A DNA stretch of 50,970 nt, taken from contig CALUOB010000004.1 in NCBI GenBank assembly GCA_944322175.1, positions 1 to 50,970 on the forward strand, read 5' to 3'. This stretch comes from an uncultured Coriobacteriaceae bacterium. Its GTDB lineage: Bacteria > Actinomycetota > Coriobacteriia > Coriobacteriales > Coriobacteriaceae. Both the position numbers and the translations under genes were made by a program. Below the pieces are notes generated by a model. The model saw only the letters and a list, made by a program, of their open reading frames with translations, searched no databases and was not told where the DNA came from. Positions 3,317 through 50,970 of this stretch are shown here, one piece after another (position 1 is the stretch's first letter; each line of letters begins with the position of its first letter).

Positions 3317-3444
3317 AAAGATTACGCAGATCGACGCATGTGCCACAAGATTACGCAGTCGGACGGCTTTACTCGGGCGTTCTTGTCGATAAACACGGGC
3401 CGCTGCGTAATCTTGCGGTATGTACGGGCAACTGCGTAGTCTTG
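3317..3444. repeat. dispersed intergenic repeat, copy 1 (AAGATTACGCAG units in opposed orientation)
   Basis: This lies in the convergent gap between the helicase and purD. The motif AAGATTACGCAG starts at 3318 and again at 3347, 29 bp apart. Its inverse, CTGCGTAATCTTG, occurs at 3403-3415, and CTGCGTAGTCTTG at 3432-3444, again 29 bp apart. Between the two halves is a core containing TTGTCGATAAACACGG. The same arrangement, with the core TTGTCGATAAACGCGG, recurs at 12681-12880. Short open frames cross both copies but differ in frame continuity, so I treat this as a non-coding repeat. Function is unknown. Confidence 0.75.
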
Positions 3445-12680: not shown

Positions 12681-12880
12681 CAAGATTACGCAGAGCCGCG
12701 GATCTGCCGCAAAAGCGATCAGGCGCACGACGAGAGGGGAACATGCGCCCCGCAAGATTACGCAGGAAAACGGACCTACCGGGAGATTGCGCAGCCCGAC
12801 GGCTCTACGGCCCCGTTTTTGTCGATAAACGCGGCCCGGTGCGTAATCTTGTGGCACATACGGGGAGAAGCGCAATCTTC
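12681..12880. repeat. dispersed intergenic repeat, copy 2 (AAGATTACGCAG units in opposed orientation)
   Basis: The second copy of the repeat seen at 3317-3444. Direct units start at 12682, 12754 and, diverged (AGATTGCGCAG), at 12784. The core has TTGTCGATAAACGCGG. Inverted units follow at 12839-12851 (TGCGTAATCTTG) and 12868-12880 (AGCGCAATCTTC). Neighbouring units are again mostly 28-29 bp apart. It lies upstream of the DUF4013 gene. Confidence 0.75.
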
Positions 12881-12964
12881 AGACGCGCGACCTTCTCCAA
12901 GCAGGGGAAAAGCGCCCTCCCGATGCCGGGAACCACCGAACAACCTGCGTCCCTATCGGGGTCG

Positions 12965-13103
12965 GGCGGAGGAGGAGGGATTCGGCGCGGCTGGCGCCGC
13001 GCGCTCGCTCGGGCGCCACGCACCTTCGCGCGCTCACTACGGAGAGGCCACAGACCTCTCCGCTTAACGTTCGCGCCCTCAACAGGGTTCGAACCCCTCC
13101 TCC
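12965..13103 (-). repeat. tRNA-Ser(CGA)-associated structured element
   Basis: On the minus strand, downstream of tRNA-Ser(CGA) and its terminator. It begins with an inverted copy of the tRNA 3' end (13103-13085, GGAGGAGGGGTTCGAACCC). A GC-rich core of about 100 bp follows. It ends with a 20-base exact copy of the tRNA 3' end (12984-12965, equal to 13185-13166). The ends can pair with each other over 14 bp. The core matches those at 21653-21750 and 50801-50893, with a different but still paired hairpin (arms GGAGAGG and CCTCTCC). Confidence 0.75.
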
Positions 13104-13164: not shown

Positions 13165-13257
13165 TGGCGGAGGAGGAGGGATTCGAACCCTCGTACCCGG
13201 GGATACCGGGTAAACGGTTTTCGAGACCGCCGCATTCAACCACTCTGCCACCCCTCC
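13165..13257 (-). tRNA. tRNA-Ser (anticodon CGA)
   Basis: 93 bases including an encoded CCA. The seven-pair acceptor stem (GGAGGGG with CTCCTCC, one G-T pair), discriminator G, a long variable arm typical of class II tRNAs, the T loop TTCGAAT and a CGA anticodon flanked by T and A give serine for UCG codons. Confidence 0.95.
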
Positions 13258-21492: not shown

Positions 21493-21568
21493 GGGGGTTT
21501 AGCTCAGCTGGGAGAGCGCGGGCTTTGCAAGCCTGAGGTCAGGGGTTCGATCCCCCTAACCTCCACCA
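21493..21568 (+). tRNA. tRNA-Ala (anticodon TGC)
   Basis: 76 bases including an encoded CCA. The acceptor stem GGGGGTT pairs with AACCTCC and includes the G3-T70 pair that marks alanine tRNAs. The anticodon loop is TTTGCAA. Confidence 0.96.
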
Positions 21569-21632: not shown

Positions 21633-21770
21633 GGTTAGGGGGATCGAACCCCATTGGGGGCGCGAGCGTCAAGCAAACGCGGAGCGTTTGTAGCGAGCGC
21701 GCTGAGGCGCAGGGCGCCGAAGCGGGCGCGGGCGCCGCCAGGCGCACGCCGAGACTCCTAACCTCCACCA
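21633..21770 (+). repeat. tRNA-Ala-associated structured element
   Basis: It begins with a 20-base exact inverted copy (21633-21652) of tRNA-Ala bases 21542-21561. A GC-rich core follows, 49 bases of which (21654-21702) are identical to 50803-50851. It ends with a direct copy of the tRNA 3' end (CTAACCTCCACCA, 21758-21770). A second copy of the tRNA-Ala terminator follows. Hairpins in the core include AAACGC-GGA-GCGTTT. No open frame of note. Confidence 0.8.
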
Positions 21771-50596: not shown

Positions 50597-50625
50597 TTGT
50601 CCTGTAAAAATGACCGCGCTATACT
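50597..50625 (+). promoter_or_regulatory. promoter of tRNA-Gly
   Basis: TTGTCC (50597-50602), a 17-base spacer and TATACT (50620-50625), 34 bases before the tRNA. Confidence 0.65.
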
Positions 50626-50659
50626 GTCCCTTGCGTTGCTTCGCGTGACGCACCCATAT

Positions 50660-50734
50660 GCGGGCATCGCCAAGTGGTAAGGCATCAGCTTCCCAAGCTG
50701 ACACTCGCGGGTTCGAGTCCCGTTGCCCGCTCCA
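50660..50734 (+). tRNA. tRNA-Gly (anticodon CCC)
   Basis: 75 bases including an encoded CCA. The acceptor GCGGGCA pairs with TGCCCGC; discriminator T; the anticodon loop is TTCCCAA; T loop TTCGAGT. Confidence 0.96.
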
Positions 50735-50742
50735 ATGAATGC

Positions 50743-50770
50743 AAGACCCTCAGCAATGAGGGTCTTTTCT
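50743..50770 (+). terminator. terminator after tRNA-Gly
   Basis: AAGACCCTCA, loop GCAA, TGAGGGTCTT, then a T-rich tract. An identical copy is at 50923-50950. Confidence 0.9.
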
Positions 50771-50788
50771 TGTTTGGGCATATCCCGT

Positions 50789-50893
50789 GGACTCGAACCC
50801 CGTTGGGGGCGCGAGCGTCAAGCAAACGCGGAGCGTTTGTAGCGAGCGCGCGAGGGCGCGAAGCGCCTGAGCGAACGCGCGGCGAAGCCGCGC
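50789..50893 (+). repeat. tRNA-Gly-associated structured element
   Basis: It begins GGACTCGAACCC (50789-50800), the inverse of tRNA-Gly 50709-50720. Its 49-base core (50803-50851) is identical to 21654-21702. Further hairpins follow (GGGCGC-GAA-GCGCC type, then GCGGC-GAA-GCCGC). It ends against CGAGTCC, which pairs with the opening GGACTCG. Confidence 0.8.
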
Positions 50894-50970
50894 CGAGTCC
50901 CGTTGCCCGCTCCAATGAATGCAAGACCCTCAGCAATGAGGGTCTTTTCTTGTTTGGGCATATCCCGTGG
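50894..50970 (+). repeat. direct copy of the tRNA-Gly 3' end plus its terminator
   Basis: All 77 bases are identical to 50714-50790, an exact tandem repeat with 180 bp spacing. It includes the tRNA 3' end (from the T arm), CCA, and the terminator. It stops exactly at the window edge, so more units could follow outside. It is not a complete tRNA. Confidence 0.9.

Follow-up and report, generated by a model that had tools for sequence, protein, structure and literature searches.

RtT-like repeats at tRNA and tmRNA 3' ends in Coriobacteriia and their proposed spread between tRNA genes

The closest described counterparts of the elements reported here are the RtT repeats (rttR; Rfam RF00391) behind the tRNA genes tyrT and proK of E. 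coli. So far RtT has been seen as a side product of a single tRNA operon in E. coli. The RtT RNA reportedly arises as a by-product when tyrT is transcribed and may take part in the stringent response, and rtT-like sequences of enterobacteria have been linked to BIMEs (PMC2965389). Northern signals for RtT have been reported in Actinobacillus (PMC4986893). The E. coli proK locus carries 0, 1 or 2 units depending on the strain. The tyrT repeat is 178 bp long. Tyrosine-integrase elements also reside in tRNA genes, and the stretch from the T loop to the CCA is a normal attachment block of tRNA integrases. A literature search found no paper describing the present elements in Coriobacteriia, and Fremin & Bhatt (2021) mention Collinsella solely for a different motif.

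The window, i.e. the whole stretch of 50,970 nucleotides that was analysed, is the complete contig C4 of the source genome, an uncultured Coriobacteriaceae bacterium (GCA_944322175.1; G000). At its end lies a forward-strand tRNA-Gly(CCC) gene (50660–50734; detected by ARAGORN and by the Rfam tRNA model at 63.5 bits), and repeat comparison within the window confirmed the original prediction that 77 bp from the 3' end of this tRNA through its terminator (50714–50790) recur unchanged at 50894–50970, with a spacing of 180 bp; a chance origin of an exact repeat of this length is far too improbable. All features of the unit lie on the forward strand. The first copy of the repeat segment spans 88 bp (50714–50801) and runs from the T-loop CGA to the CCA, through a linker with an intrinsic terminator-like hairpin and T run (AAGACCCTCA-gcaa-TGAGGGTCTT; 50743–50771; evident in the sequence, as an inverted repeat and in the folds), to an anti-T arm at 50789–50801 that is supported by inverted repeat, fold and covariation. 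An inverse of the T arm had been predicted to open the 103-bp interval between the copies (50791–50893), and inverted-repeat analysis placed it at 50789–50800, complementary at 12/12 positions to the arm at 50709–50720. In the fold, the anti-T arm contributes to two stems, its 5' half pairing with the 3' half of the copied T segment (P1) and its 3' half with GGGG at 50806–50809 (P2), followed within the core (50802–50893, which also supplies the P2 loop and 3' strand) by P3 (50811–50849), P4 (50850–50872) and P5 (50877–50893). The core leads into the second tRNA-Gly 3' end (CGAGTCCCGTTGCCCGCTCCA; 50894–50914), which is identical to 50714–50734 at 21/21 positions and whose first bases close P1, and then into a second linker and terminator (50915–50970). 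Models R1 and R2 match 50789–50914 at 125–126 bits.

The second copy stops at 50970 because contig C4 ends there. Since the first 77 bp of contig C3 of the same genome (C3:1-77) are identical to 50725–50801, the figure of 77 looks like an assembler overlap length. The identity originally noticed is therefore real, but the true repeat segment is at least 88 bp long (50714–50801), includes the anti-T arm, and was cut short by the contig end. Beyond 50970, contig C3 carries the repeat onward and then reads into purB, a gene that also adjoins tRNA-Gly(CCC) in at least eight relatives; on this synteny, together with the repeat and contig comparisons, the genomic order C4 tRNA-Gly(CCC) - repeat - core - repeat - C3 purB is well supported. 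Continuation of an array past the window end, as had been proposed, is plausible because tandem arrays of 2–3 units were found at other loci. The possibility that the 77-bp copy is an assembly artefact, to which its stop at the contig end and its length equal to the C3 overlap could point, was rejected as having very low probability: the copies are joined through the unique 103-bp interval, C3 and the purB synteny continue the repeat, and other, independent assemblies as well as complete E. coli genomes show this architecture too.

The architecture of this locus agrees with that of E. coli RtT at tyrT and proK. In both cases the unit lies directly behind a tRNA, here on the same strand, and combines an anti-T arm, a P2-like hairpin, GC-rich hairpins and a copy of the 3' end of its own tRNA with the CCA, the whole being closed by a complementary 5' segment that pairs with the 3'-end copy. 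Tandem units measure ~168–178 bp in E. coli and 180 bp here, and unit number varies between strains for E. coli RtT, as do unit number and presence among the Coriobacteriia elements. The proK linker of E. coli K-12 also holds an intrinsic terminator, and the proK unit has a T-stem copy and the proK 3' end. The differences are the core sequence and stem arrangement, the phylum, and the host loci, which comprise many tRNAs per genome and tmRNA in the Coriobacteriia as opposed to two tRNA loci in E. coli. The RF00391 model reached at best 14–16 bits in the four genomes of the genus against a cut-off of 45, in a search that finds E. coli above cut-off; no RtT match was present in window positions 50600–50970 at E-values up to 10, and Rfam as a whole, at the gathering threshold and at E ≤ 10, returned only the tRNA and chance matches for the element. 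Model R2, built from Coriobacteriia alone, ranked the tyrT and proK units first on E. coli stretches, with scores of 13–22 bits. Because the architecture agrees but RF00391 misses the Coriobacteriia elements, they are named RtT-like rather than RtT, and are best filed as a new, very abundant variant of the same architecture. A motif behind tRNAs in Methanopyrus was also considered and rejected as a match, being a different short palindrome. Two insertion sequences were seen near or inside the proK repeat region of E. coli: in strain 2024CK-00188 (L190) an IS621 (IS110 family) transposase gene lies ~200 bp behind the unit, and in strain Rb-23 (L197) ISEc13 is inserted in an anti-T/P2 remnant.

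The duplication does not stand alone. A core search of the source genome revealed that 17 of its 46 tRNA genes, as well as tmRNA, carry a unit directly 3' on the same strand, and two further members lie within the window, each found by model match and with ends fitted to its own tRNA: one on the forward strand at 21640–21770 behind tRNA-Ala(TGC) (21493–21568), and one on the reverse strand at 12964–13096 behind tRNA-Ser(CGA) (13165–13257). The occupied tRNA genes are Gly-CCC, Gly-GCC, Arg-CCG, Arg-ACG, Lys-CTT, Lys-TTT, Thr-TGT, Val-TAC, Ser-TGA, Ser-CGA, Glu-TTC, Leu-TAA, Leu-CAA, Leu-CAG, Phe, Ala-TGC and Gln-TTG (left half only), and the tRNA-Ser-GCT region ends at a contig edge just where the anti-T arm starts. 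Each strong core match in this genome directly follows a tRNA gene and shares its strand; one further match that seemed to have no tRNA (C56:4349-4492) follows tmRNA and carries a copy of its tRNA-like 3' end. An element in another family of the same order (L166) is also located behind tmRNA with a copy of the tRNA-like 3' end. Four elements, at tRNA-Val (L049), tRNA-Leu (second unit of L060), tRNA-Gln (L061) and tRNA-Gly(TCC) of genome G003 (L207), have a longer core with an extra GC-rich block (GCGGAGAGGCC..GGCCTCTCC..GCGCGCGG), which looks like a composite of two cores.

Model R1 detected elements in all four genomes of the genus (19, 6, 5 and 23 copies) and in 52 of the 67 searched from the taxonomic family; in the order the distribution is thinner. 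With model R2, elements were found in 93 of 398 genomes of the class, where matches outside the family were much weaker, and in 12 of 396 genomes of a phylum sample, all but one of these from the same family and the remaining one behind a tRNA-Ser. The named matches belong to Collinsella and other Coriobacteriaceae and Coriobacteriia, and copies per genome ranged from 0 to 23 among related genomes, most of the genomes searched being drafts. A majority of the class-level model matches (104/134) start 18–71 nt behind a tRNA; the remainder comprises later array units, matches at contig edges, a few overlapping low-scoring matches, tmRNA loci (L021, L166) and a truncated tRNA (L176). All significant matches that were checked are located behind tRNA or tmRNA 3' ends, in arrays or at contig edges. 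Among these matches there were no cores in arbitrary places, and none of the dispersal over intergenic regions irrespective of tRNA that characterises REP/BIME sequences. The elements resemble BIME/REP in being GC-rich hairpin repeats outside genes, but differ in that they are confined to tRNA and tmRNA 3' ends, hold fitted copies of the host tRNA and form a multi-stem junction.

Across loci the layout from 5' to 3' comprises the tRNA, a linker of ~55 nt that usually holds an intrinsic terminator, the anti-T arm, the core and the copy of the tRNA's own 3' end from the T-loop CGA to the CCA, to which many loci add another linker and anti-T arm. Complementarity of the anti-T arm extends to the two halves of the T arm, with the 5' half of the anti-T arm pairing with the 3'-end copy (P1) and its 3' half with the start of the core (P2), where a short copy of the 5' strand of the T stem serves as partner. 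For the anti-T arm, a retroviral-like primer-binding site was another candidate reading; it was abandoned since the arm is complementary to the T arm rather than to the CCA end. The remainder of the core, which is non-coding and ~90 nt long, consists of the GC-rich hairpins P3, P4 and P5, the last abutting the CGA at which the 3'-end copy starts at nearly all loci. Most hairpin loops are C-GNA-G triloops, not GNRA loops; the triloop motif is also very stable in single-stranded DNA. When 81 distinct members of the family were compared, both sides had changed in 24 of 30 pairs, 92.9% of cells were paired, and the covariation score was 0.349 compared with 0.135 for shuffled and at most 0.075 for slid controls, in an alignment that was fitted to the model and is thereby biased towards structure. 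The sense strand folded better than the antisense strand in 103 of 122 elements, a tendency rather than a probability given that the sequences are related. In cross-locus statistics, which ignore relatedness among loci, the 3'-end copy agreed at 16.2 of 17 positions with the tRNA of its own locus and at 9.7 with other tRNAs (26 tRNA species); its acceptor part was 97–100% identical to the tRNA where linkers had diverged to 60–90%, and where linkers were 60–75% alike the acceptor part remained 97% and the CCA part 90% identical, both of these lying outside the core structure.

The conserved acceptor part and the sense-strand folding bias could mean an RNA function, and a functional RtT-type small RNA is the main rival to a reading of these units as spreading repeats. 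Under this explanation, tRNA-processing enzymes would cut read-through transcripts of tRNA operons and set free a folded RNA with a tRNA 3' end as its terminus; this RNA would act in stress or translation control, and the repeats would be kept for that function. The strong covariation, the folding bias, the fixed position and strand, and the conservation of the copied acceptor strand and CCA beyond the drifting linkers are all in its favour, as are the RtT RNA reported in E. coli (PMC2965389) and the northern signals in Actinobacillus (PMC4986893). However, a terminator-like hairpin precedes the core at 82 of 91 loci, which disfavours strong expression while still permitting it, copy number differs widely between related genomes, and the loops are mostly not of the GNRA type. 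A functional small RNA is regarded as possible but doubtful, and propagation as a tRNA-dwelling repeat is judged the likelier reading, ahead of a dedicated regulatory role.

The prediction that the inverse segment could pair with either tRNA 3' end was borne out at the level of two-dimensional folding, in which both folds were computed: energies were -155.4 kcal/mol with the second 3' end and -149.5 kcal/mol with the native tRNA forced, a gain of 5.9 kcal/mol in a calculation that leaves out tRNA tertiary contacts and co-transcriptional folding. This difference, along with the conserved acceptor part of the copy, would be consistent with a folding switch: in read-through precursors the anti-T arm would bind the native T arm, the second 3' end would pair with the 5' strand of the tRNA, and the insert would be looped out from the T loop. 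Such a switch is improbable, given the factors missing from the energies and that termination normally occurs before the anti-T arm is synthesised.

Evidence bearing on movement came from the comparison of cores between loci. In genome G337 the cores at tRNA-Thr and tRNA-Ser are 98% identical, whereas same-tRNA elements of other genomes are 58–60% identical, and near-identical cores at different tRNAs were also present in G338 and G292. The block shared by the two G337 loci comprises the tRNA end, linker, anti-T arm and core, and ends at the 3'-end copy. Because cores of 98% identity stand at different tRNAs with ends fitted to the local tRNA, these sequences indicate movement of cores from one tRNA locus to another, or conversion between them; the near-identity could be the outcome of gene conversion between old elements as opposed to new insertion. 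At tRNA-Gly(TCC) a unit is present in G003 and absent in the source genome, an unpolarised pair for which loss is also possible.

The favoured explanation, held with slightly better than even confidence, is that of an RtT-like tRNA-3'-end repeat spreading between tRNA genes. The core would spread by recombination or copying at T-arm/3'-end sequence, the part that is partly common to all tRNAs, and the unit would be tolerated in that the functional tRNA retains an intact 3' end and terminator. Identical flanking copies could then recombine, causing units to multiply or be lost. Where the terminator is read through, a multi-stem junction would form in which the anti-T arm clamps the surplus 3' end, as expected for the E. 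coli RtT RNA. The restriction of the core to positions behind tRNA and tmRNA, the near-identical cores across tRNAs and the differing presence between relatives all support a mobile reading. Of the three ideas in the original prediction, a decoy for processing enzymes, a switch on tRNA folding and a small mobile element that exploits tRNA 3' ends, the last fits best, though there was no moving enzyme, circle or transposition event found for the units. As in tyrosine-integrase elements within tRNA genes, there is a direct repeat of the 3' end from the T loop onward and an intact tRNA is kept; the units differ in their length of ~180 bp, the anti-T arm, the covarying core, and the recurrence of one core at several tRNAs, each time with its ends refitted. 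A scar reading, in which an element inserted at the T loop by a tyrosine integrase has shrunk and left attL/attR-like 3'-end duplications, would account for a duplication that starts in the T loop and extends to the CCA, but is very improbable: the conserved, covarying core is common to different tRNAs of one genome and recurs at independent sites, no integrase gene lies within the units (~180 bp being too short for one), and an IMG/VR scan with the tested pattern gave 0 matches.

A broader and considerably more speculative suggestion, itself rather unlikely, is that RtT and the Coriobacteriia elements belong to a single class, spanning phyla, of minimal mobile units that carry no genes and live on tRNA and tmRNA 3' ends. 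These would use the 21 nt from T loop to CCA as attachment site and the anti-T arm as a built-in guide pairing with both T-arm halves around the insertion point, with ends refitted for each tRNA. The same layout behind about one third of the tRNA genes and the tmRNA of a gut actinobacterium, each fitted to its own host, would turn an old curiosity into a general class, and the many natural copies allow comparative tests of spread, of a possible RNA and of effects on tRNA processing.

Several further arrangements were observed around these loci. In G003:C27:5238-5522 (L208/L138), a truncated remnant (the last 55 nt) of the window tRNA-Gly is preceded by a complete but distinct tRNA-Gly(CCC), and the element stands behind the remnant; the arrangement looks like replacement of the tRNA gene from its upstream side. 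In Collinsella-like genomes (L110, L111, L144, L145), two to three full tRNA-Arg(ACG) copies occur with elements between them, which suggests that joint duplication of units and whole tRNAs can occur. A second intergenic repeat family, centred on AAGATTACGCA in direct and inverted orientation, occurs in the window at 3318–3414 and 12682–12850 and on contig C3 (L003) at 100–215; this sequence has six exact matches in the window against 0.01 expected, with more at the start of C3.
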